NCBI RefSeq assembly: GCF_000092905.1
Contig: NC_014098.1
Coordinates: 434,001 to 498,000 of the forward strand
Source: Kyrpidia tusciae DSM 2912
GTDB taxonomy: Bacteria; Bacillota; Bacilli; Kyrpidiales; Kyrpidiaceae
Direction of reading: 5' to 3'
DNA length: 64,000 nt
Positions 23,144-34,161 of the stretch are shown here, piece by piece (the stretch's first letter is position 1; each line of letters starts with the position of its first letter). The notes under the pieces were generated by a model, which was not told where the DNA came from, made no database searches, and saw only the letters and a program-made list of their open reading frames with translations. A program made the translations under genes and the position numbers.

Positions 23144-23172
23144 TTGCAATGATGGTCGGACAATAGGATTAT
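23144..23172 (+). promoter_or_regulatory. Predicted promoter of the MFS-M24-AEC operon
   Basis: TTGCAA (23144-23149) and GATTAT (23167-23172) with a 17-base spacer; each matches its consensus at four of six positions. Operator copy 1 lies entirely inside the spacer, so bound repressor would block polymerase. Confidence 0.5.
23152..23164 (-). promoter_or_regulatory. GntR (FadR-type) operator, copy 1
   Basis: On the minus strand this reads ATTGTCCGACCAT. It fits TnGTnnnACnA, the pattern of FadR-subfamily GntR regulators, and matches the copies at 23247 and 27754 at 12 of 13 positions or better, allowing Y at two positions. Confidence 0.7.
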
Positions 23173-23246: not shown

Positions 23247-23259
23247 ATTGTCTGACTAT
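23247..23259 (+). promoter_or_regulatory. GntR (FadR-type) operator, copy 2
   Basis: ATTGTCTGACTAT lies in the leader, 95 bases (about nine helix turns) downstream of copy 1. The spacing would allow two bound dimers on the same face of the DNA to loop together. Confidence 0.7.
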
Positions 23260-23315: not shown

Positions 23316-24593
23316 GTGAACAGCCAGAGCCAGACGATCGCACAGAAGAAAAGCAAAGCGCGTTACTGGATCATGATCTTGATTTTTTTCAGCACGGTGA
23401 TTGCGTATACAGATCGGTCGAATATTTCGGTTGTTGCCACGACGATGATGAAAGAGTTCGGATGGAACGAGAGTCAATTCGGCCTGTTGTCGTCCGCCTT
23501 TTTCCTCGGTTATCTGCTGTTGGGGATTCCGGCCGGTTGGCTGTCGGACAAATGGGGCGGCGTAAAGTTGTTGGCTTTCGGCGTCGTCATGTGGTCGATC
23601 TTCACCGGGCTGACGCCTCTGGCCTGGAGCTTTCTCTCCATGCTGGTCGTCCGATTTTTGTTGGGAGTCGGAGAGGCCGTCAATTTTCCCTCTCATACGT
23701 CCGTCGTCTCCAGGTGGTCTCCGACCCATTCCCGGGGCAGATGGCAAGGTCTGAACATGTCGGGTATGGCCATCGGTGTGATGATTGCAACGCCCATCAC
23801 CTCATGGTTGACAGAGAGTATTCATTGGCACGCATCTTTCTATTTTTTCGCGATCATCGGGATTATTTGGGCGATTCTCTGGTTATTCATTGCCACTGAC
23901 GATCCGCGTCAAAATCGCTTGATTTCTTCAACAGAACTTGAGGAGTTAACCGATGTAACGGAAATGCACGAAAAGAACTCTCAATCCAGAACATGGGTAA
24001 ACATGCTGAAAGTGAAAGAGGTGTGGGGCTTAACCTTAACGTACTTTTTCCAGAACTACAACTGGTATCTGTATCTGACCTGGCTGCCGGCCTATTTCAT
24101 GAAAGCTCGCGGGTTCAGCCTTCTGAAGGTGGGTATCTACGGTATGCTGCCGTGGATCGGGGCGTTCATCGCCATGAACGTGGCGGGCCTCATTTCGGAT
24201 CGCCTGGCCAAAGGCCGTTCCTTGACCGAGGCCAGAAGAATTCCGGTCTATGTCTCGTTCATCGGTACGGCGATCTTCATGGCTTTGGGTGCATATACCC
24301 CCAATCAATGGATGGCCCTTTTGTATATCACCCTGTCCGTGACATGCCTGGGCATCAATTTCGCGATGTTCTGGACGTTGCCCATTGACATCGGCCCGAA
24401 AAGTGCGGGGACCGTTTCCGGAATCATGAATACCTCGGGAACCATCGCCGGGATCGTGGCGCCGGCGCTCACCGGTTTTCTCATCGTTTCTCTCGGTTCT
24501 TGGCAGTACGTGCTTTTCGTCGGTGCGGCGTTGGCTCTGATCGGCGCGGTGCTGACTCGATTCATGATTTCGGCCAATCGCGTGCTGGATTGA
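23316..24593 (+). CDS. MFS transporter, anion:cation symporter (ACS) type
   Basis: A 425-residue protein with about 12 transmembrane helices. The start of helix 1 reads 'VIAYTDRSNISVV', and 'GLLSSAFFLGYLLLGIPAGWLSDKWG' contains the MFS loop motif. 'RFLLGVGEAVNFPSHTSVVSRW' is typical of the ACS group (GudP, ExuT, GarP), which imports small carboxylates such as sugar acids or phthalates with H+. The GTG at 23316 has AAAAGGAGGG upstream. It is the first gene behind operators 1 and 2. With the acyl-CoA enzymes downstream, import of a branched hydroxy acid is the likely job; that substrate is inferred. Confidence 0.9.
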   Translation: MNSQSQTIAQKKSKARYWIMILIFFSTVIAYTDRSNISVVATTMMKEFGWNESQFGLLSSAFFLGYLLLGIPAGWLSDKWGGVKLLAFGVVMWSIFTGLTPLAWSFLSMLVVRFLLGVGEAVNFPSHTSVVSRWSPTHSRGRWQGLNMSGMAIGVMIATPITSWLTESIHWHASFYFFAIIGIIWAILWLFIATDDPRQNRLISSTELEELTDVTEMHEKNSQSRTWVNMLKVKEVWGLTLTYFFQNYNWYLYLTWLPAYFMKARGFSLLKVGIYGMLPWIGAFIAMNVAGLISDRLAKGRSLTEARRIPVYVSFIGTAIFMALGAYTPNQWMALLYITLSVTCLGINFAMFWTLPIDIGPKSAGTVSGIMNTSGTIAGIVAPALTGFLIVSLGSWQYVLFVGAALALIGAVLTRFMISANRVLD

Positions 24594-24722
24594 CAGATGA
24601 ACCGTTGATCAGATTATATGATGAACTATATAATGGGGAAAAAGCGGAACAGGGGGAATATCCCGGTCATACGAGCGCATCGACGCCCGCGGTTCGGCGT
24701 TAGGCATGAGGGGGGGACGAGA

Positions 24723-25925
24723 ATGGCCGTTGAGACGGAGGAACCGGATCTTCATGTAAGACGCATACGAATTCTTCAGAAACAGTTGGCAAACGGCGGG
24801 TTTGACGCTGCCCTGATCATGCAGCCGCGAGACCTCTTCTACTACGCCGGCACCGCCCAACCGGCGAATCTCTGGATTCCCGCCGCCGGCGAGCCGATTC
24901 TGTTCACCCGACGCGCTCACTCCCTGGCCCGGAAAGCCACGTGGATCCGCCGAACGGTTGAAGCGAACAGCTACGGCGACCTTCGACGATCGTTGGCTGA
25001 AGTCGGCGCTCTCCCCAAGTCGGGCGCGGTTGTAGGAGTTGAGCAGGATGTGGTGCCGGCCGCCTTGGTGAACAATCTTGCGCGGCATTTTGCCGACGTA
25101 ACGTTGAAGAATGTTTCTCCGTTGATCTTGCGCCAGCGTTTTGTGAAAGATCCGACGGAGATCGCCCGGATCCGGGAAGCGGTTGAAGCGTGGAAGGCGG
25201 GACACCACCAGGTGCTGTCCCGGCTCGTTGTCGGCAGGGCGGAGTATGAGATCGCGGCCGCCATGGAATATGGAGCGCGGAATGCCGGAGGTGACGGGGT
25301 CGTTTGGTTTCGCCGATGGGACGGATGTCTACCGGGCGGCGGGATTGTGAGTTCAGGCCCGAACGCTTGGGTCGTGTCCGGCCACGCCATGACGGTGACC
25401 GGGGTGGGGATGAATCAAGGTTTGCCCTGGGGAGCGTCCGCCCGGGTGATCGAGCCGGGGGATTTGGTTGTCGTGGATTACGGGGTTACGAGAGAAGGCT
25501 ATCATGCCGACATGGCGAGAACTTACTGCGTCGGCAAGCCCTCCGCTGAACAAAAAGCTCTTTGGGATCGATTGATTGAACTTCATTTTACGGTGATCGA
25601 TCGCATTCGGCCCGGGGTGACTGGAGAAGAACTCTACCGGATTGGGGCCGAGACGGCGGACAAGATGGGGTTGGCGGAGTTTTTTATGGGGGTGGGTGCC
25701 GACCGGGGGAGGTACGTCGGCCACTCCATCGGACTTGAGGTGGATGACTGGCCGGTTTTGGGAGAAGGCTCCCAGGATCCCTTGGTGCCGGGGGCGGTGG
25801 TGACGATCGAACCTAAGTTTATGGTGCCGGGGCTCGGTGCCGTGATGGTGGAAGACGATATTCTGGTGACGGAACAAGGTCATGAAATTGTCAGTACCCT
25901 CGGCCATGAGTTATTCTATGTGTGA
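24723..25925 (+). CDS. M24 family metallo-hydrolase (Xaa-Pro dipeptidase/creatinase-like)
   Basis: A 400-residue pita-bread fold protein. An N-terminal creatinase-type domain covers about residues 1-150. The C-terminal catalytic domain has all five metal ligands: two Asp in 'VVDYGVTREGYHADMART', His in 'GHSIGLEVDD', and Glu in 'TIEPKF' and 'VMVEDDILV'. It should be an active dinuclear metal hydrolase of a C-N bond. The ATG at 24723 is favoured over upstream ATGs, which lie in a sequence without coding character. Its place between a carboxylate importer and an AEC carrier, under the same operator, suggests it releases the catabolic substrate from a conjugate and is not a housekeeping peptidase. 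Confidence 0.88.
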   Translation: MAVETEEPDLHVRRIRILQKQLANGGFDAALIMQPRDLFYYAGTAQPANLWIPAAGEPILFTRRAHSLARKATWIRRTVEANSYGDLRRSLAEVGALPKSGAVVGVEQDVVPAALVNNLARHFADVTLKNVSPLILRQRFVKDPTEIARIREAVEAWKAGHHQVLSRLVVGRAEYEIAAAMEYGARNAGGDGVVWFRRWDGCLPGGGIVSSGPNAWVVSGHAMTVTGVGMNQGLPWGASARVIEPGDLVVVDYGVTREGYHADMARTYCVGKPSAEQKALWDRLIELHFTVIDRIRPGVTGEELYRIGAETADKMGLAEFFMGVGADRGRYVGHSIGLEVDDWPVLGEGSQDPLVPGAVVTIEPKFMVPGLGAVMVEDDILVTEQGHEIVSTLGHELFYV

Positions 25926-26010: not shown

Positions 26011-26901
26011 GTGGTTGTTCCGGTCATCTTTGTAATCGGTATCGGGTATCTGTTTGGACGCTATGCATCGGCGGACTTGGGTTCGATCTCGAAATTTTCG
26101 ATGGTCGTTCTCAGCCCGGCCCTGATTTTCAGTTTTCTGGTTCGCAATCAACTGGATTCCCATCAGTTGGTGAAAATCGTCGCCGCCGTCCTGTTGTTTA
26201 CCGTTGTGATGGCGGCGGTAACCCTAGTCGTCATGGGGCTGTGTGGAATGAAGCCGTTCATGAAGCCGGCCCTGTTGGCCACGGTGTTTCCAAACACCGG
26301 AAATTATGGATTGCCTATTCTTTTGTTTGCGTACGGTCAGCAGGCGTTCTCTATGGGGGTCGTCATCGTCGTTGTGAACTTTATCCTCATGTACACTCTG
26401 GGTGTGTATTTTGCTTCCCTGGAGCGGGCGAGTTGGCGCACCGCAATCACCGATGTGTTTCGGCTTCCGACGACGTATGCGACATTGGCGGCCATCATTG
26501 TAAGTTTATTGCACATCCCGATCCCGAGTTATATCTATGACCCCCTGAAAATGATGGGGGATGCCATGATTCCCGTGGTCATGTTGATTCTCGGGATGCA
26601 GTTGGCGCACGTGAAGCCCCGGGGTGACACGGGTCCTACGGTGATATCCAGCCTCGTGCGGCTGGTTGTGTCTCCGGCGGTGATGCTGGGCATCGTGTAT
26701 CTTTTCGGGATCGGAGGGCTCATGGCCAAGGTTTTGATCGTCCAAAATTCCATGCCCACGGCGGTCATTATGACGATGATCGCGGCGGAATACCGCGCTC
26801 GTCCGGATTTCGTAGCCGGGACCACCTTCCTGTCGACGCTGATGAGCTTTGGCACGATCACTGGGCTGCTCTACGGGGTCAACCGATTGTTCGGCAGTTA
26901 G
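26011..26901 (+). CDS. AEC family (auxin efflux carrier-like) transporter
   Basis: A 296-residue protein with about ten hydrophobic helices. It has the family pattern 'VIGIGYLFGRYASADLGSISKF', 'ATVFPNTGNYGLPILLFAYG' and 'IPVVMLILGMQLAHV'. Bacterial AEC members carry dicarboxylates such as malate, or related acids, in either direction. The GTG at 26011 is the only normal start codon in place but has a distant ribosome site; an upstream CTG at 25999 sits eight bases after AAGGGGGG. It is third in the MFS operon, giving the cluster two carriers. Direction and substrate are unknown. Confidence 0.82.
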   Translation: MVVPVIFVIGIGYLFGRYASADLGSISKFSMVVLSPALIFSFLVRNQLDSHQLVKIVAAVLLFTVVMAAVTLVVMGLCGMKPFMKPALLATVFPNTGNYGLPILLFAYGQQAFSMGVVIVVVNFILMYTLGVYFASLERASWRTAITDVFRLPTTYATLAAIIVSLLHIPIPSYIYDPLKMMGDAMIPVVMLILGMQLAHVKPRGDTGPTVISSLVRLVVSPAVMLGIVYLFGIGGLMAKVLIVQNSMPTAVIMTMIAAEYRARPDFVAGTTFLSTLMSFGTITGLLYGVNRLFGS

Positions 26902-27006: not shown

Positions 27007-27717
27007 ATGTTTCAATCCGTAAGGCATAAAAAGGTATTCGAAGAGATACTGGATCAGATCAAGGAAATGCTCGTCAACGAGCAGCTTTCGGTCGGACAGC
27101 GAATTCCGTCGGAGATTCGGTTGGCGGAAACCTTGGGGGTGAGCCGATCATCTCTTCGTGAGGCGCTGCGGATCCTCGATGTGTTGGGAATCATTGAGGC
27201 AAAGACCGGCGAGGGGACGGTCATCCGCAAAGCTGATCCGGAGAACCTCAAGAACCTCATGACGTTGGTGGCCGTATCCGGCGGTATCGACACGGTGGAT
27301 CTGTACGAGGCACGGTGTGCCATCGAAGTGGAGGCGGCGATGTTGGCGGCGGCTCGGCATACCGCCGAAGATCTGCGTACGATGGAACGGGCGTTGAAAG
27401 AGATGGACGAATGTCGGGATGCCGAGGCTTCGGCTCATTCCGATTATCTGTTTCACCGGGCCATCGTCCGCGCGTCGCAAAATGACGTTTTGAAGATGAT
27501 GATGAGTTTTATCAGTGATTTGTTGGGAGAGCAGATTCGAGATACCCGCTCCAGATTGGCGCCGGAGATCCTGGACCGATTCCAGGTACAGCATTGGATG
27601 ATTTTCGAGGGTATCGCCGGCTGCAATCCGGAAGCCGCCGGCAAAGCCGTTCGGGAGCATCTCACCTATGCCCAGGAAAAAATGGGTTTCTTACGTGAGC
27701 GAGGGCTCGGTAGGTAG
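27007..27717 (+). CDS. GntR family transcriptional regulator, FadR/FCD subfamily
   Basis: A 236-residue regulator. The winged helix has 'KVFEEILDQIKEMLVNEQLSVGQRIPSE' and 'LAETLGVSRSSLREALRILDVLGII'. The all-helical FCD ligand domain follows, with metal-binding residues in 'HSDYLFHRAIV' and a C-terminal 'VREHLTYAQ'. FCD regulators usually repress and are released by an organic acid or acyl-CoA. It lies between the MFS operon and the mutase operon. The only three copies of ATTGTCYGACYAT that I found lie at the fronts of these two operons, so it is the probable regulator of both. No full operator was seen directly before its own start. Confidence 0.93.
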   Translation: MFQSVRHKKVFEEILDQIKEMLVNEQLSVGQRIPSEIRLAETLGVSRSSLREALRILDVLGIIEAKTGEGTVIRKADPENLKNLMTLVAVSGGIDTVDLYEARCAIEVEAAMLAAARHTAEDLRTMERALKEMDECRDAEASAHSDYLFHRAIVRASQNDVLKMMMSFISDLLGEQIRDTRSRLAPEILDRFQVQHWMIFEGIAGCNPEAAGKAVREHLTYAQEKMGFLRERGLGR

Positions 27718-27753: not shown

Positions 27754-27766
27754 ATTGTCCGACTAT
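27754..27766 (+). promoter_or_regulatory. GntR (FadR-type) operator, copy 3
   Basis: ATTGTCCGACTAT lies at the predicted transcription start of the mutase operon, about 40 bases upstream of the first start codon. Repression by the neighbouring GntR protein is the simplest reading. Confidence 0.7.
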
Positions 27767-27806: not shown

Positions 27807-28745
27807 TTGCAAGAGCTTCTCTCGCGATTCGATGCCGGGGATCCCGTAGCCCTCGGCAAACTGTTGAAAGAAGTCGAAAACGGAACATCGTCGGGAAAAG
27901 AGGCCCTTCGTTGCACCGCGTCCCGTCAAGGTCGCGCCCACGTGGTGGGGATCACCGGCCCGCCGGGGGCGGGCAAGAGCACGCTCACCGCAAAACTCTC
28001 CAAACGGTGGGCGGAGGCGGGTCGGGAGGTGGGGATTGTCTGCGTCGATCCGACGAGTCCTTTTTCCGGGGGGGCGTTGTTGGGAGATCGGATACGGATG
28101 TTGGAATTATCATCCTTTCCAAATGTTTTCATTAAGAGTCTTGCCACTCGGGGAAGTCTGGGGGGGATGGCCGCCTCCACCGCGGATATCATCCAGTTGA
28201 TGGACGCCTACGGGAAAGAAGTGGTGGTCGTTGAAACGGTGGGGGTCGGCCAAGTGGAATTCGATGTGATGGACCTTTCGGATACCGTGGTCCTGGTCAA
28301 TGTTCCGGGCCTCGGGGATTCCATCCAGGCGCTGAAAGCCGGGATTCTGGAAATCGCCGATATCTTTGTGATTAACCAAGCGGACCGGCCGGGCGCTGAG
28401 GATAGCGTTCGAGACCTGCGACAAATGCTGGCGGACCGGAAAGAGACGGGTTGGCTCTGGCCGGTGGTGAAAACCGTGGCCACAAGGGGTGAAGGGATCG
28501 ATCGGTTGGCGGAAGCGATTGAAAGTCACCGGGCGTACCTGAAGCGAGAACAATTGTGGGAGGAAAAACGTTGCCGCCGAAATCGTCAACGGTTGATGCA
28601 GGAGATGGATCGGTTGTTCCGCCAACATGTTCTTACGCGGATCCGGACGGACCCAACCGCCCGAGCACTGTTCGAAGAGGTTGAAAAAGGGACCCAAGAC
28701 CCCTATTCGGCGGCCAGGCACCTTTTTCAAGAAATTGTGAATTAA
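27807..28745 (+). CDS. MeaB/ArgK-type G3E GTPase, mutase chaperone
   Basis: A 312-residue P-loop GTPase. Walker A is 'GITGPPGAGKSTLTAKL', followed by 'VCVDPTSPFSGGALLGDRIRM', 'VVVETVGVGQVEFDV' and the base-recognition motif 'NQAD'. MeaB proteins load and protect adenosylcobalamin on methylmalonyl-CoA mutase and its relatives. The start is TTG 27807, with an ideal AAGGAGGTC ribosome site. It is the first gene of the mutase operon and lies 14 bases before hcmA, which supports pairing with this mutase and not with a methylmalonyl-CoA mutase elsewhere. Confidence 0.93.
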   Translation: MQELLSRFDAGDPVALGKLLKEVENGTSSGKEALRCTASRQGRAHVVGITGPPGAGKSTLTAKLSKRWAEAGREVGIVCVDPTSPFSGGALLGDRIRMLELSSFPNVFIKSLATRGSLGGMAASTADIIQLMDAYGKEVVVVETVGVGQVEFDVMDLSDTVVLVNVPGLGDSIQALKAGILEIADIFVINQADRPGAEDSVRDLRQMLADRKETGWLWPVVKTVATRGEGIDRLAEAIESHRAYLKREQLWEEKRCRRNRQRLMQEMDRLFRQHVLTRIRTDPTARALFEEVEKGTQDPYSAARHLFQEIVN

Positions 28746-28759
28746 GGAGGGAGACCCTG

Positions 28760-30451
28760 ATGGCTGATCAAGAGAAGCTCTTTAATGGAGACGAGATCCG
28801 GCGAATTCGACAGGAAAAGGAACGTTGGTACCGAGAGACGGTCAAAGGAAACGACGGAGGAAACGACTATGTGACGGATTCGGGAATTCCTGTCAACCTG
28901 ATCTACGGCCCGGACGACATCGCGGATTTCGATTATTTGAAAGAAAGCGGTTTTTCCGGAGAACCGCCCTATGTTCGGGGCGTTTATCCGAATATGTACC
29001 GGGGTCGACTCTTCACTATCCGCCAGATCGCGGGATTCGGAACTCCGGAAGACACCAATCGGCGATTCAAATTCCTCTTGGAGAACGGTGCGACAGGCAC
29101 CAGCGTGGTGTTGGACCTGCCGACGATCCGCGGCTACGACTCCGATGATCCCAAAGCCGAGGGCCATGTTGGCGCCGCCGGAGTCGCCATTGACTCCCTG
29201 GAGGACATGGAGGCGCTCTATGACGGAATCCCCATCGATCAGGTGTCTTCGAACATCGTCACGCATTTGCCGAGCACCACGGTGGTGTTGATGGCGATGT
29301 TTGTGGCGATGGCCGAGAAACGGGGCCTGCCCCTCGAGAAGTTGTCCGGCACCAACCAGAATGATTTCTTGATGGAGACGACCATCGGCAGCTCGCTGGA
29401 GATTCTGCCGCCGAAGGCTTCCTTCCGGCTGCAGTGCGACTCCATTGAATACGCGAGCAAACGGCTCCCGAGGTGGAACCCTGTGAGCTACAACGGGTAC
29501 AACCTTCGAGAAGCGGGAACCACAGCGGTGCAGGAGGTGGGGTGCGCCATTGCCAACGCTATCGCCACGACGGAAGAGTTGATTCGCCGGGGAAATGACG
29601 TCGATGACTTTGCAAAACGGCTGTCCTTTTTCTGGAACTTGTTCAACGATTTCTTCGAGGAGATTGCGAAATGCCGGGCATCGCGGCTGGTCTGGTACGA
29701 CGTGATGAAAAATCGATTCGGCGCCAAGAATCCTCGATCCTATCTCATGCGTTTTCACGTGCAGACCGGGGGCATCACGTTGACGAAGGTGGAACCCCTG
29801 AACAACATTGCGCGGTCTGCGATTCAGGGACTGGCCGCCGTTTTGGGCGGGGCCCAGTCTTTGCACATCGATTCTTACGACGAAGCCTATTCGGCGCCCA
29901 CTGAACAGGCGGCTCTGGTCTCCCTGAGGACCCAGCAGATCATTCAAGTGGAGACGGGCGTAGTCAACACCGTTGACCCCTTGGCCGGCTCCTATTACGT
30001 GGAATATTTGACCCGAGAGATGGCCGAACACATCCGGGCCTACATCGACCAGATCGAATCCCGGGGAGGAATCATCGCTGTCGTGGAAAGTGGGTGGCTG
30101 CACCGGGAAATCGCCGAATTCGCGTATCGAACCCAGCAGGACATCGAGACCGGGAAGCGAAAAGTGGTCGGTCTGAATTACTTCCCGTCCAAAGAAGCTG
30201 AAACCAAGGTCGAGGTGTTCCGTTATCCCGAAGATGCCGAGCGCATGCAGAAGGAAAAGTTGGCCAAACTGCGGGCTCGCCGGGACCCGGTGAAGGTGGA
30301 GCAGACCCTGCGGGTTCTTCGTGAGAAATGTCACGAAGATGTGAACATCCTGCCCTACGTAAAAGATGCCGTCGAAGCGTACTGCACCTTGGGCGAGATT
30401 CAAAACGTGTTCCGGGAAGAGTTCGGGCTGTGGCAGTTCCCTTTGGTTTGA
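28760..30451 (+). CDS. hcmA: 2-hydroxyisobutyryl-CoA mutase-type B12-dependent acyl-CoA mutase, large subunit
   Basis: A 563-residue TIM-barrel subunit of the methylmalonyl-CoA mutase family without a fused B12 domain. 'VYPNMYRGRLFTIRQIAGFGT' and 'VVLDLPTIRGYDSDDP' are the substrate and cofactor segments. The residue after 'TIRQ' is Ile90, where methylmalonyl-CoA mutase has Tyr and isobutyryl-CoA mutase has Phe. Ile here marks 2-hydroxyisobutyryl-CoA mutases. Position 117 is Val, not the Asp of the Aquincola enzyme; that site is known to affect stereo-preference for 3-hydroxybutyryl-CoA. I recall a characterised Kyrpidia tusciae mutase of this type that favours the (R) form. ATG 28760 has AAGGAGGG. 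The B12 subunit follows 40 bases later. Confidence 0.92.
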   Translation: MADQEKLFNGDEIRRIRQEKERWYRETVKGNDGGNDYVTDSGIPVNLIYGPDDIADFDYLKESGFSGEPPYVRGVYPNMYRGRLFTIRQIAGFGTPEDTNRRFKFLLENGATGTSVVLDLPTIRGYDSDDPKAEGHVGAAGVAIDSLEDMEALYDGIPIDQVSSNIVTHLPSTTVVLMAMFVAMAEKRGLPLEKLSGTNQNDFLMETTIGSSLEILPPKASFRLQCDSIEYASKRLPRWNPVSYNGYNLREAGTTAVQEVGCAIANAIATTEELIRRGNDVDDFAKRLSFFWNLFNDFFEEIAKCRASRLVWYDVMKNRFGAKNPRSYLMRFHVQTGGITLTKVEPLNNIARSAIQGLAAVLGGAQSLHIDSYDEAYSAPTEQAALVSLRTQQIIQVETGVVNTVDPLAGSYYVEYLTREMAEHIRAYIDQIESRGGIIAVVESGWLHREIAEFAYRTQQDIETGKRKVVGLNYFPSKEAETKVEVFRYPEDAERMQKEKLAKLRARRDPVKVEQTLRVLREKCHEDVNILPYVKDAVEAYCTLGEIQNVFREEFGLWQFPLV

Positions 30452-30491
30452 TCCGGTGTGTTCGGCTAAATCGCGAAAGGGGTTTGTACGG

Positions 30492-30890
30492 ATGGAGAAA
30501 AAGATCAAGGTGATCATGGTCAAATTGGGACTCGACATTCATTGGCGCGGAGCGTTGGTGGTGTCCAAGATGCTTCGCGATCGGGGCATGGAAGTGGTCT
30601 ATCTCGGCAATCTGTTCCCCGAACAGATCGTCCAAGCGGCCGTCCAAGAGGGGGCCGACGTGGTGGGCTTGAGCACCCTAGGCGGCAACCATCTGACGTT
30701 GGGTCCCAAGGTGGTGGAGTTGTTGCGGGCGAAGGGAATGGAGGAGGTTCTCGTGATCATGGGCGGCGTGATCCCCGAGGAGGACGTCCCGGCCCTCAAG
30801 GAGGCGGGAATCGCTGAAGTGTTCGGGCCGGAAACCCCCATTGACGCCATCGAATCGTTCATTCGAAGCCGGTTTCCGGATCGGGATTGA
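30492..30890 (+). CDS. hcmB: B12-binding small subunit of the acyl-CoA mutase
   Basis: A 132-residue cobalamin-binding domain. It has the base-off motif DxHxxG as 'LGLDIHWRGALVV' (His17), 'VVGLSTLGGNHL' and 'LVIMGGVIPEEDV', the three loops that hold adenosylcobalamin. It pairs with HcmA to form the heteromeric mutase that interconverts 2-hydroxyisobutyryl-CoA and 3-hydroxybutyryl-CoA. The ATG at 30492 has AAAGGGG nine bases upstream; the open frame extends further upstream but overlaps hcmA and lacks support. Confidence 0.93.
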   Translation: MEKKIKVIMVKLGLDIHWRGALVVSKMLRDRGMEVVYLGNLFPEQIVQAAVQEGADVVGLSTLGGNHLTLGPKVVELLRAKGMEEVLVIMGGVIPEEDVPALKEAGIAEVFGPETPIDAIESFIRSRFPDRD

Positions 30891-30915: not shown

Positions 30916-31653
30916 TTGAGAGTCAAGGACAAAGTGGTCGTTATTACCGGAGGAGCACGTGGGATTGGAAAGGCGACGGCGGAGAAATTCCTGGAAGAAG
31001 GGGCCCGTGTCGTCTTTTGCGATCGGGATGCCGAGGCCGGGAGGGAGACCCTGGAGGAACTCCGATCCCTGGGGCCGGTGTCCTTCTATCCTGTTGATGT
31101 CACTGCCGAGGAAGACATCCTGGATTTCATCGGCAAAGTGGTGGAGGTCCATGACCGGGTGGATGTTCTCATTAATAATGCCGGGATCACTATGGACGGC
31201 CTGCTCACCAAGTTGGCTGAAGAAGCCTGGCATAAGGTTCTCGCCGTGAATTTGACGGGTGTGTTTCTATGCACGAAGGCGGTGGCGCCTTTCATGATCG
31301 AACGCGGACGGGGGGTGATTCTCAATGCCTCCTCGGTGGTGGGGCTCTATGGGAATTTTGGCCAAACCAATTATGCGGCCACCAAGGCGGGGGTGATCGG
31401 TCTTACCCGCACCTGGGCCAAAGAACTGGGGCCGAAAGGAATCCGGGTGAACGCTGTGGCACCCGGCTTTATCGCCACGGATATGACGGCCAAAGTGCCG
31501 GAGAAGATTCTGGAACGGATGCGGGAGCAGACCCCCCTCCGGACGTTGGGCCGTCCCGAGGACATTGCGTCGGCGTACCTCTTTCTGGCGTCCGACGAAG
31601 CCCGGTATATCAACGGTGCGGTGTTGTCCGTGGACGGCGGTCTGGTGTTGTGA
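30916..31653 (+). CDS. SDR oxidoreductase, FabG/PhaB-like (probable (R)-3-hydroxybutyryl-CoA dehydrogenase)
   Basis: A 245-residue classical short-chain dehydrogenase. The cofactor motif is 'VVITGGARGIGKATAEKF', 'INNAG' follows, and the catalytic Ser-Tyr-Lys are in 'ASSVVGLYGNFGQTNYAATKAG'. It resembles 3-oxoacyl-ACP reductase and acetoacetyl-CoA reductase, which act on the (R)-3-hydroxy form. In this operon it would oxidise the mutase product to acetoacetyl-CoA. The start is TTG 30916, six bases after AGGAGGAG. It lies 25 bases after hcmB. The cofactor (NAD or NADP) is not certain. Confidence 0.88.
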   Translation: MRVKDKVVVITGGARGIGKATAEKFLEEGARVVFCDRDAEAGRETLEELRSLGPVSFYPVDVTAEEDILDFIGKVVEVHDRVDVLINNAGITMDGLLTKLAEEAWHKVLAVNLTGVFLCTKAVAPFMIERGRGVILNASSVVGLYGNFGQTNYAATKAGVIGLTRTWAKELGPKGIRVNAVAPGFIATDMTAKVPEKILERMREQTPLRTLGRPEDIASAYLFLASDEARYINGAVLSVDGGLVL

Positions 31654-31706: not shown

Positions 31707-33125
31707 ATGGTTCGTCTTCCCGAACAATGGCCACCGGTGTATGATCGCACCTATGTTCCCGGGCCGGAAGAGAGGTATTGGAACCCGACGGTGGAAACGA
31801 TGACTCAGGAACAACTGCAGGATCTTGTGTTGCAAAAATTAAAGCGGCAAATCCGATATGTCTATGACCATTCGGAGTTTTATCGAAAAAAGTGGGCGGC
31901 GGTGGGATTTGAACCCGGCGACCTGAAGGATTTTGAGGATTTTGAACGCCTCCCGTTCACAACCAAGCAGGAATTGCGCGAAGACCAGATGGAACATCCA
32001 CCCTACGGTAGCAATTTGTGCATTTCTCACGAAGAGATTTTCCACATTCACGGGACGTCGGGCACCACGGGAAAACCGACCGTATTCGCGTTAAGCAGGG
32101 GGGACTGGGAGCGGATGGCCGAAGCCCATGCCCGGGTGATGTGGGCATTTGGCTTGCGGCCGTCGGACAAGGTGTTTATCGGTTCCGTGTTCAGCCTTTA
32201 TGTCGGAAGTTGGGGGGCTCTCGCCGGCGTGGAGCGGCTTGGGGCGGCGGCGTTCCCGTTCGGTGCGGGGCAACCCGGGCAGACGGAGAAGGCCGTTCGG
32301 TGGATGTGGGAAGTCAAACCCTCGGCCTTTTACGGTACTCCGTCGTATGCGCTCTATTTGGCTGAAAAGGCGAAAGAACTGGGTATCGATCCCAGGGAAT
32401 TCGGGATTCGCATCTTGTTTTTCTCCGGCGAACCGGGTGCGGGGGTTCCGGCGACTCGGCGGCGGATCGAAAGCACCTACGGCGGCATCTGCGTGGATAC
32501 CGGATCCATGGCGGAGATGACCCCGTGGATGGCCAACGGGGAATGTCAGCACCGGCAGGGGATGCATGTGTGGCAAGATATTGTCTACACGGAGGTGGTG
32601 CATCCCGAGACCAAACAGAGGGTTCCCTATGGCCGGGAAGGGGTGCCGGTCTACACCCACCTCGAGCGGCAGGCTCAACCGATGGTGCGGTTGTGGTCGG
32701 GGGACTTAACGTTGTGGACGAACGAACTCTGCCCGTGCGGGCGCCCGTATCCCCGGTTTCCCAAGGGCATCTACGGTCGGGTGGACGATATGGTGGTGGT
32801 TCGCGGCGTCAATGTGTATCCGAGCGCCGTGGAAGACGTCGTTCGTTCCATACCCGGGCTGGGAGACGAGTTCCGGCTGGTGGTGTCCAGGGAAGGGATC
32901 ATGGACGAACTGGCTGTCCAGGTGGAGATGAACACAACTGCGCATGAAGACCCGGCGATCGCGGCCGATTCCCTTCGTCAGAAACTGAAAAGTGTCCTCG
33001 GGCTGTCGGTGCACGTCGAAGTGTTGCCGGGCGGCACCTTGGAACGGACCGAGTTTAAAGCTCGGCGGGTGGTGGACAAACGGCGGATGCAGGGCGCGGC
33101 GCCCGAAGGCTCGAGCGGGGCCTGA
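31707..33125 (+). CDS. AMP-forming acyl-CoA ligase, phenylacetate-CoA ligase (PaaK) type
   Basis: A 472-residue adenylate-forming enzyme. The P-loop 'HGTSGTTGKPTVFALS' and 'AFYGTPSYALYLAEKA' are in the N-terminal domain; 'DTGSMAEMTPWMANGE' and 'MVRLWSGDLTLW' follow. A CPCG site and 'RVDDMVVVRGVNVYPSAVEDVV' mark the PaaK C-terminal domain. PaaK-type ligases activate aryl or short branched acids with CoA and ATP. As last gene of the mutase operon it is the natural candidate to make 2-hydroxyisobutyryl-CoA or a close analogue; this substrate is inferred. ATG 31707 has AAGGAGGAG. Confidence 0.88.
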   Translation: MVRLPEQWPPVYDRTYVPGPEERYWNPTVETMTQEQLQDLVLQKLKRQIRYVYDHSEFYRKKWAAVGFEPGDLKDFEDFERLPFTTKQELREDQMEHPPYGSNLCISHEEIFHIHGTSGTTGKPTVFALSRGDWERMAEAHARVMWAFGLRPSDKVFIGSVFSLYVGSWGALAGVERLGAAAFPFGAGQPGQTEKAVRWMWEVKPSAFYGTPSYALYLAEKAKELGIDPREFGIRILFFSGEPGAGVPATRRRIESTYGGICVDTGSMAEMTPWMANGECQHRQGMHVWQDIVYTEVVHPETKQRVPYGREGVPVYTHLERQAQPMVRLWSGDLTLWTNELCPCGRPYPRFPKGIYGRVDDMVVVRGVNVYPSAVEDVVRSIPGLGDEFRLVVSREGIMDELAVQVEMNTTAHEDPAIAADSLRQKLKSVLGLSVHVEVLPGGTLERTEFKARRVVDKRRMQGAAPEGSSGA

Positions 33126-33194: not shown

Positions 33195-33229
33195 GACACC
33201 GGGCACAAGCGGCCCGGTGTCAAGTTTTT
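33195..33229 (+). terminator. Terminator of the mutase operon
   Basis: GACACCGGGC (33195-33204) pairs perfectly with GCCCGGTGTC (33212-33221) across a seven-base loop, followed by TTTTT at 33225-33229. It ends just at the stop of the convergent MBL gene. Confidence 0.85.
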
Positions 33230-34161
33230 CATCGGTTCCCAATCCAGTGAAGCAATCCCATGGCATTGAGGAGCATGTCATCGTCCAAGAATACGTCACT
33301 GCGGGGGGCACCGACTGTTTGTTTCATATCATCCAAGGCGAAAGATTTCAGGTGACGGGCCATCTCCTCGAGGGTGATGTCCGGTCGATACACCTTCTCG
33401 GTCAACTGGACTACAGCGTCCACCAACCGCTCGGTTTCGTCGAACACCCAGTCCACCGCATCGGTGGCGCCAAAGTGGCCGAAGAAAACTTTGGCCGGTC
33501 GCAAAGATCGCAAAAGGGCCACCGATTCGTGCGTTGCCTGAGGATCAAAATCCACCGGCGTGGTGGTCGGGAACAAGTAGTCCCGGTCGAGTCCGGTCAA
33601 CTCTCGATGATAGCGAATCCCCGTCGTGTCGCCGGTGAACACCCCTCGACTCACCGGATCAAAAATGCTGATATGGTGTTTCGCATGCCCGGGGGTGTGA
33701 TAGAAGGTCAACTTCCGGCTGCCGAGGTCGAGGGTCCCTCCGTGATCCGCGGCGATGAGGCGATCGGCGGGAATCGGGAGAACCTCTCCGAACAAGGACT
33801 CCAGTCTATCCCCGTAGACGGCCCGGGCGCCGGCCACCAGCCGGGTGGGATCTGCCAGGTGCCGGACCCCCCGGGGATGGACCACCACTTTGGCCTTCGG
33901 ACAGGCAGCCGCCAGACTACCGGCGCCTCCGGCGTGATCCAAGTGAATATGCGTGAGGAGGATATAATCGATCGCTTCGAGCGACAGACCCGCCTCCTGT
34001 ATCCCAGCAGTGATTTGTGGTAAGGACAAACTGCCTCCGGTTTCAATGACGGCGTTCTTTTCTCCGGGAAGAATGTACGAACCCGTGCGGCCGGACAAGC
34101 CGCGTTCCATCAGATCCACCATCCAAATTCCATCTCCGAGATCGAATAGTGAGCGGTTCAA
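33229..34161 (-). CDS. MBL-fold metallo-hydrolase
   Basis: A 310-residue metallo-beta-lactamase fold protein. The metal motif is 'LLTHIHLDHAGG', with 'YHTPGHAKHHISIF', 'VFTGDTTG' and a late 'FFGHFGATD' giving the remaining ligands. It is close to the glyoxalase-II-like or thioesterase-like groups. The start is TTG 34161 with GGAAGGGAG nine bases upstream. It lies convergent to the mutase operon, so shared regulation is not implied, although a thioesterase role for the nearby acyl-CoA pathway is possible. The substrate is unknown. Confidence 0.85.
   Translation of the reverse strand: MNRSLFDLGDGIWMVDLMERGLSGRTGSYILPGEKNAVIETGGSLSLPQITAGIQEAGLSLEAIDYILLTHIHLDHAGGAGSLAAACPKAKVVVHPRGVRHLADPTRLVAGARAVYGDRLESLFGEVLPIPADRLIAADHGGTLDLGSRKLTFYHTPGHAKHHISIFDPVSRGVFTGDTTGIRYHRELTGLDRDYLFPTTTPVDFDPQATHESVALLRSLRPAKVFFGHFGATDAVDWVFDETERLVDAVVQLTEKVYRPDITLEEMARHLKSFALDDMKQTVGAPRSDVFLDDDMLLNAMGLLHWIGNR

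Follow-up and report, generated by a model that had tools for sequence, protein, structure and literature searches.

Why should a gene annotated as an Xaa-Pro peptidase lie among genes for a B12-dependent acyl-CoA mutase? The question is raised by a locus of Kyrpidia tusciae DSM 2912. The gene is within a 64,000-nucleotide stretch of DNA (contig NC_014098.1, positions 434,001 to 498,000; hereafter, the window). An earlier note, made from these letters alone, had proposed that the encoded M24 protein is no housekeeping prolidase but part of a 2-hydroxyisobutyrate regulon. Relatives of this protein are currently annotated as 'Xaa-Pro peptidase family protein'.

The M24 gene encodes a full-length pita-bread fold

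The open reading frame occupies positions 24723 to 25925 on the forward strand, from an ATG at 24723 to a stop at 25925, and encodes an M24-fold metalloenzyme of 400 amino acids. Initiation at an alternative in-frame start upstream (24618) would yield 435 amino acids. However, the start at 24723, and the purine-rich sequence preceding it, are both kept in a second genome (G002), which favours the shorter product. This 400 amino acid protein matches Peptidase_M24 (PF00557; 1.4e-48, 165.9 bits versus a cut-off of 23) and Creatinase_N (1e-16, 62 bits versus a cut-off of 22). The gene is under purifying selection (dN/dS of 0.13, compared with G002), similar to its neighbours. An AlphaFold2 model (pLDDT 94) has the pita-bread fold over its full length.

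We compared the model with known structures using VIA-align. The alignment with T. maritima 2zsg covered 349 residues with 30% identity (Z of 41.4). The Z scores were 41 for Xaa-Pro peptidases, 39.8 for the ectoine hydrolase DoeA, 39.2 for creatinase, 32 for SPT16 and 31 for the DMSP lyase DddP. Since values are high for Xaa-Pro peptidases, DoeA, creatinase and DddP alike, fold alone picks no function.

The metal site is kept and the peptidase second shell is replaced

Like PepQ and aminopeptidase P (M24B; T. maritima 2zsg and P. horikoshii 1wy2), the Kyrpidia protein has two domains and five metal ligands. As the earlier note stated, the ligands are intact; D252, D263, H334, E363 and E377 are all present and, in our alignment, invariant in 91 of 91 relatives. 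The second shell is different. In aminopeptidase P, the proton relay is formed by H243 and H361 (PMC5774706), and mutation H243A abolishes activity of P. aeruginosa PepP (PMC5723419). Using E. coli aminopeptidase P numbering, the equivalent of H243 is W236 in Kyrpidia (His in 17 of the 91 relatives, mostly Gln) and that of H350 is R330 (His in 2 of 91). H361 is replaced by D341, with Asp in 89 of 91 relatives, a count partly selected for because the scan patterns used to collect relatives contained D341 and K365. Finally, Y387 and R404 correspond to M367 and M375; Tyr and Arg, respectively, occur in none of the 91. By contrast, four PepQ-like proteins, including this genome's own, keep H, H, H, Y and R at these positions. 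By alignment, then, all five M24B second-shell catalytic residues are replaced and the five-ligand dinuclear metal site is kept. The residues for cleaving Xaa-Pro bonds being gone, Pro-containing conjugates are unlikely substrates.

Unlike PepQ and aminopeptidase P, the M24 protein carries R197, K365 and Q46, and is linked to a mutase regulon. These residues are newly conserved in the family: R197 in 89, Q46 in 87 and K365 in 85 of 91 relatives, with only R197 and Q46 free of the collection bias noted above. In the SGHAMTVTG.G region, the M24 protein also has approximately 27 inserted residues, absent from the Kyrpidia PepQ. Scores against NCBIfam peptidase equivalogs fall below cut-off (137 versus 630 bits for NF040821, archaeal PepQ; 98 versus 393 for NF007310). 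In a quick tree, well-supported branches set the protein apart from four PepQ-like rows. Note that the complete genome (3,384,766 bp) encodes only two other PF00557 proteins, one PepQ-like (C1:711 kb) and one MetAP-like (C1:164 kb). Given the lost second shell, the missed cut-offs, the position in the tree and the PepQ encoded elsewhere, we reject a housekeeping prolidase, in agreement with the earlier note.

Comparison with other M24-fold enzymes

Creatinase (1chm, 7yto) is a small-molecule catabolic enzyme that shares the M24 fold. It requires no metal and is characterized by a catalytic His232 and guanidinium-binding Glu262 and Glu358. Conversely, the M24 protein keeps its metal site, is only about 20% identical and has no guanidino-related neighbour genes. 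The kinship is one of fold only. Ectoine hydrolase DoeA/EutD (6twk) has the M24 fold, a catabolic context and a profile, NF038259, to which our protein has a weak full-length match. Membership was rejected, because scores are far under the cut-offs (59.5 versus 575 bits for NF038259; 29 versus 613 for TIGR02993). Furthermore, the DoeA compared (L118) is without the metal ligands that the M24 protein keeps.

DddP (4b28, 4rzy) is a non-peptidase with the M24 fold and a conserved metal site. It keeps the metal ligands, Asp297 being among them, and uses Tyr366 and Asp377 near the metals (PMC4108388), the Asp as proposed base. In the M24 protein, this sixth ligand (D295+2) is replaced by Gly254 (V-V-D252-Y-G); identity is about 20% and the gene context is different. 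Counting positions, rather than aligning residues, D341 stands at metal His +7, compared with His +6 for Asp377 and His -5 for Tyr366.

The M24 gene lies between operator-bearing transcription units

The Kyrpidia gene order, entirely on the forward strand, is MFS-M24-AEC-GntR-MeaB-RcmA-RcmB-SDR-HCL. Profiles confirm the two transport neighbours named in the earlier note. Upstream is an MFS transporter of the anion/carboxylate type (ACS/2A0114-like; 23316 to 24593), a probable importer (PF07690, 6e-68; TIGR00893 is the best NCBIfam match, below cut-off). It is conserved at 76% in the RCM loci of two further genomes, G240 and G053. Downstream is an AEC-family (Mem_trans) carrier (26011 to 26901; PF03547, 2e-31), conserved in Alteribacillus locus L034 and in G002. 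There follow genes for an FCD-type GntR regulator (LldR/GlcC-like; 27007 to 27717), present in all four RCM lineages, and for a MeaB-type GTPase chaperone of the mutase (27807 to 28745; TIGR00750, over cut-off). Profiles then identify RcmA, the 2-hydroxyisobutyryl-CoA mutase large subunit (28760 to 30451), and RcmB, the B12-binding small subunit (30489 to 30890). The last two genes encode an SDR dehydrogenase, from its profiles a probable (R)-3-hydroxybutyryl-CoA dehydrogenase (30919 to 31653), and HCL, a PaaK-like acyl-CoA ligase (31707 to 33125; 51% to Methylibium HCL). The GntR-meaB-rcmAB-hcl core is like known 2-hydroxyisobutyryl-CoA mutase clusters (K. tusciae RcmAB, Aquincola and Methylibium HcmAB). 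The K. tusciae RCM mutase and its cluster are already described, in a paper that makes no mention of the M24 gene (PMC7176365).

Convergent with HCL, on the reverse strand, is a gene for an MBL-fold hydrolase (33229 to 34161). Since homologues are found near haloarchaeal M24/mutase clusters (40% in L114, 31% in L116), this hydrolase may belong to the same pathway.

A pattern search identified operator-like palindromes upstream of the MFS gene, TGGTCGGACAA (23153 to 23163; equivalent site at L150:10743 in G002) and TTGTCTGACTA (23248 to 23258), and upstream of meaB, TTGTCCGACTA (27755 to 27765; G002 equivalent at L150:15335). These three are among four sites for TNGTCNGACNA in the window, where 1.2 are expected. 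Genome-wide the pattern is not enriched, and a backwards control gives more sites. Hence, the argument is one of position, not count. A search of the 3.38-Mb genome with the stricter TTGTCNGACWA gave four distinct sites; those at 23248 and 27755 are intergenic and the other two are inside open reading frames. Operator sites are also present in G002, G240, G053 and Alteribacillus, and two of these read as the perfect palindrome CGATTGTCAGACAATCG. In Alteribacillus, two sites are directly before the M24 gene (L034:7816 and L034:7921).

The earlier note had placed the M24 gene and its neighbours under the same operator. Both flanking transcription units do carry operator sites; none is directly upstream of the Kyrpidia M24 gene itself, which follows the MFS gene across a 129-nt gap. 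This gap contains a promoter-like TTGATC-18-TATAAT (24605 to 24634, forward strand), a consensus match only, with both hexamers unchanged in G002. The M24 gene may, on this basis, have a promoter of its own. Because the gene is second in its unit, and possibly has this promoter, we can only infer operator control.

Linkage to RCM and HCM-type mutases across rearranged loci

We surveyed 348 Bacilli genomes, where G000 is the Kyrpidia genome of the window. RcmA is encoded, with at least 79% identity, in G000, G240 and G053, and the relevant contig of G002 breaks off within an rcmA that is 92% identical. An intact Kyrpidia-type M24 gene was found only in G000, G002 and G240, all three of them RcmA carriers (chance p of 6e-7, ignoring relatedness). 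The fourth carrier, G053, has, following the ligase gene, a decayed M24 fragment with in-frame stops and an interrupting transposase-like open reading frame. A further genus, Alteribacillus (L034), has an intact M24 gene with RcmA. Hence, M24 is in every RcmA locus found, spanning four genera and three gene orders, with one copy decayed. Besides the Kyrpidia arrangement, these orders are GntR-SDR-RcmA-RcmB-M24-ligase-MFS-MeaB in G240 and M24-ligase-GntR-MeaB-RcmA-RcmB-SDR, with AEC upstream, in Alteribacillus. Since gene order differs by lineage, inheritance of a single block does not suffice to explain the linkage. Conserved linkage and operators in G000, G002, G240 and Alteribacillus thus give strong support to membership of the 2-hydroxyisobutyrate regulon, as proposed in the earlier note; in G053 the gene is decayed.

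Two features of individual loci were apparent. In G053, the M24 N-terminal remnant and transposase-like open reading frame are directly after HCL (L152:13643-14860). The SDR of this cluster is also reduced, to a fragment of 42 amino acids, and MFS, GntR, MeaB, RcmA, RcmB and HCL look intact. In RCM loci L151 (13310-15121) and L034 (9183-10826), the place of HCL is taken by an AMP-binding ligase unrelated to it (about 22% to HCL, and 60% between the two), which suggests that the acid substrate is different, or its range wider.

Two haloarchaeal plasmids encode a TPP enzyme (annotated in Natrinema), HCL, mutase A and B, MeaB and M24. The ligase is 51% identical to Kyrpidia HCL and the mutase only 44% identical to RcmA. 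In our alignment the haloarchaeal mutases carry I90 and D117, like Methylibium HcmA, where RcmA has I and V; we take the I90/D117 pair to be the HcmA-type signature, and the alignment agrees. Hence, one M24 clade accompanies two mutase types that are 44% identical. Note that support for placing the Kyrpidia protein next to the haloarchaeal rows is modest (SH-aLRT of 81). The Natrinema cluster also encodes a class I SAM-dependent methyltransferase, between MeaB and M24 (L114:8818-9912).

Unlike the Kyrpidia cluster, the HcmAB cluster of Methylibium is without M24; no M24 gene was found within 8 kb of the HCM-like clusters in Methylibium, Shinella and Sinorhizobium. Together with loss of the G053 copy, this places the M24 step outside the core ligase-mutase route.

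M24 relatives beside other B12-dependent mutases

Among fetched loci for the wider M24 set, B12 acyl-CoA mutases (PF01642) are the commonest neighbour family (21 loci). Context could be read in 58 loci. A mutase lies near the M24 gene in 24 of them, IcmF operons included; the other 34, with 5 kb or more to either side, show no mutase. With 8 parsimony changes on the tree, the link must have arisen, or been lost, several times. We found no literature linking peptidase M24 with methylmalonyl-CoA mutase operons, or a peptidase with IcmF neighbourhoods.

The arrangements are varied (gene names beyond the Pfam scan were read from sequence). In Geobacteraceae, the order is DUF6125-IcmF-nitroreductase-M24-thiolase-hbd-crt-acd. 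At L102:3400-9149, DUF6125, IcmF, a nitroreductase-family protein and M24 stand in a row ahead of butyryl-CoA oxidation genes; the nitroreductase-family protein recurs in eight loci. In Syntrophomonas, the order is CobA-mutA-mutB-MeaB-B12-C_GCAxxG-IF2B-M24. In Syntrophomonadaceae (L043:5603-9203 and L040), MeaB and M24 are separated by genes for a second B12-binding protein, a redox protein of the C_GCAxxG type and a protein like IF-2B/MtnA. A Chloroflexi MAG has propionyl-CoA carboxylase genes around M24, and MCM nearby. In several Bacilli, the M24-family gene adjoins sdh genes, not a mutase.

At the genome level, of the 27 Bacilli genomes that encode the M24 family, 26 also have an MCM-type mutase, compared with 110 of 348 overall, a baseline that leaves out IcmF-only genomes; the 27th genome has IcmF. 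The corresponding p is 2e-13 ignoring relatedness and approximately 0.007 by taxonomic family. Since relatives have IcmF, ICM-like and MCM neighbours, a function confined to 2-hydroxyisobutyrate could apply to the Kyrpidia clade at most.

Discussion

What might the M24 protein do? Our evenly balanced judgement is that it represents an undescribed subfamily, which has abandoned prolidase chemistry to become a specialised partner feeding B12-dependent acyl-CoA mutase pathways. On our preferred reading, it would be a metal-dependent hydrolase (or lyase) that supplies the ligase-mutase pathway with a branched or hydroxy acid. The GntR regulator of Kyrpidia would derepress the MFS-M24-AEC unit along with the mutase operon, and the MFS protein would import a small carboxylate. 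The two-metal centre would then activate water, or polarise the substrate, with R197 and K365 holding the carboxylate and D341 acting as acid/base instead of H361. An acid, either 2-hydroxyisobutyrate itself or a branched or 2-hydroxy acid close to it, would be released from the imported carboxylate-bearing precursor by breaking an amide, ester or other bond, and passed via the CoA ligase to RcmAB. Of the interpretation in the earlier note, separation from the housekeeping prolidase and membership of the regulon are supported; the amide conjugate that it suggested is a plausible candidate substrate. The lysine 2-hydroxyisobutyryl modification is widespread (PMC8760513), making 2-hydroxyisobutyrate conjugates, such as modified lysine, candidate substrates. 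HCM-like clusters without M24 fit a feeder step needed for some carbon sources only. Against a feeder, the family also occurs in beta-oxidation and propionyl-CoA carboxylase operons, beside IcmF, ICM-like and MCM mutases. In such operons, a role in acyl-CoA or mutase maintenance comes to mind more readily than release of acid from an external conjugate.

The M24 family follows mutases of several types, which makes an accessory or maintenance factor the main rival; it would act on the mutase or its B12 cofactor, or else on a damaged acyl-CoA by-product. The prominence of PF01642 among neighbours, the IcmF-nitroreductase-M24 and CobA to M24 arrangements, and the co-occurrence with MCM or IcmF in all 27 Bacilli genomes are consistent with such a factor. 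However, HCM-like clusters in three genera manage with no M24 nearby, the gene lies beside sdh genes and not a mutase in several Bacilli, 34 loci have no mutase and the chemistry is not obvious. We consider this role unlikely, if worth keeping in mind. Less likely again is a DddP-like lyase, where metals would bind the substrate carboxylate, D341 would take the C-alpha proton and a leaving group would be eliminated. While DddP provides the precedent of an M24-fold non-peptidase with metal ligands kept (PMC4108388), and an Asp is nearly invariant at a nearby position, the Asp297 ligand is Gly254 here and the fold is nearer to prolidase, DoeA and creatinase (Z of 39 to 41, rather than 31). Moreover, 2-hydroxyisobutyrate has no C-alpha hydrogen. 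Hence, alpha-proton abstraction cannot handle that acid itself.

An ordinary Xaa-Pro dipeptidase or aminopeptidase P, brought into the regulon by position, is very improbable. Prolidases are the best sequence and structure matches, and the metal ligands are intact, but the altered second shell, the separate PepQ, scores far under every NCBIfam peptidase cut-off and linkage maintained across rearranged loci all argue otherwise. Pseudoenzymes usually lose metal ligands. A pseudoenzyme that only binds or regulates is thus hardly credible since, although M24 pseudoenzymes exist and SPT16 is among the structural matches, the five ligands and the family-specific polar set are strictly kept.

The RCM cluster was already known; what is new is the unexpected, reproducible link between M24 and B12 mutases. 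The protein is probably a little-known partner of the B12 mutase pathway, not a peptidase. More broadly, and tentatively, the rewired subfamily could be an unrecognised partner of RCM, HCM, IcmF, ICM-like and MCM mutases across bacteria and archaea, with chemistry (hydrolase, lyase, or cofactor or acyl-CoA repair) new for M24. B12 enzymes are also employed in synthetic CO2-fixing pathways (PMC11599936). The proteins studied here, annotated as Xaa-Pro peptidases, are without the known peptidase catalytic set and accompany B12 mutases. Provided that the link is functional, a step of branched-acid metabolism, or a helper of B12 enzymes, is hidden by a common misannotation. This bears on the natural source of 2-hydroxyisobutyrate, the acid that forms a widespread modification of lysine.
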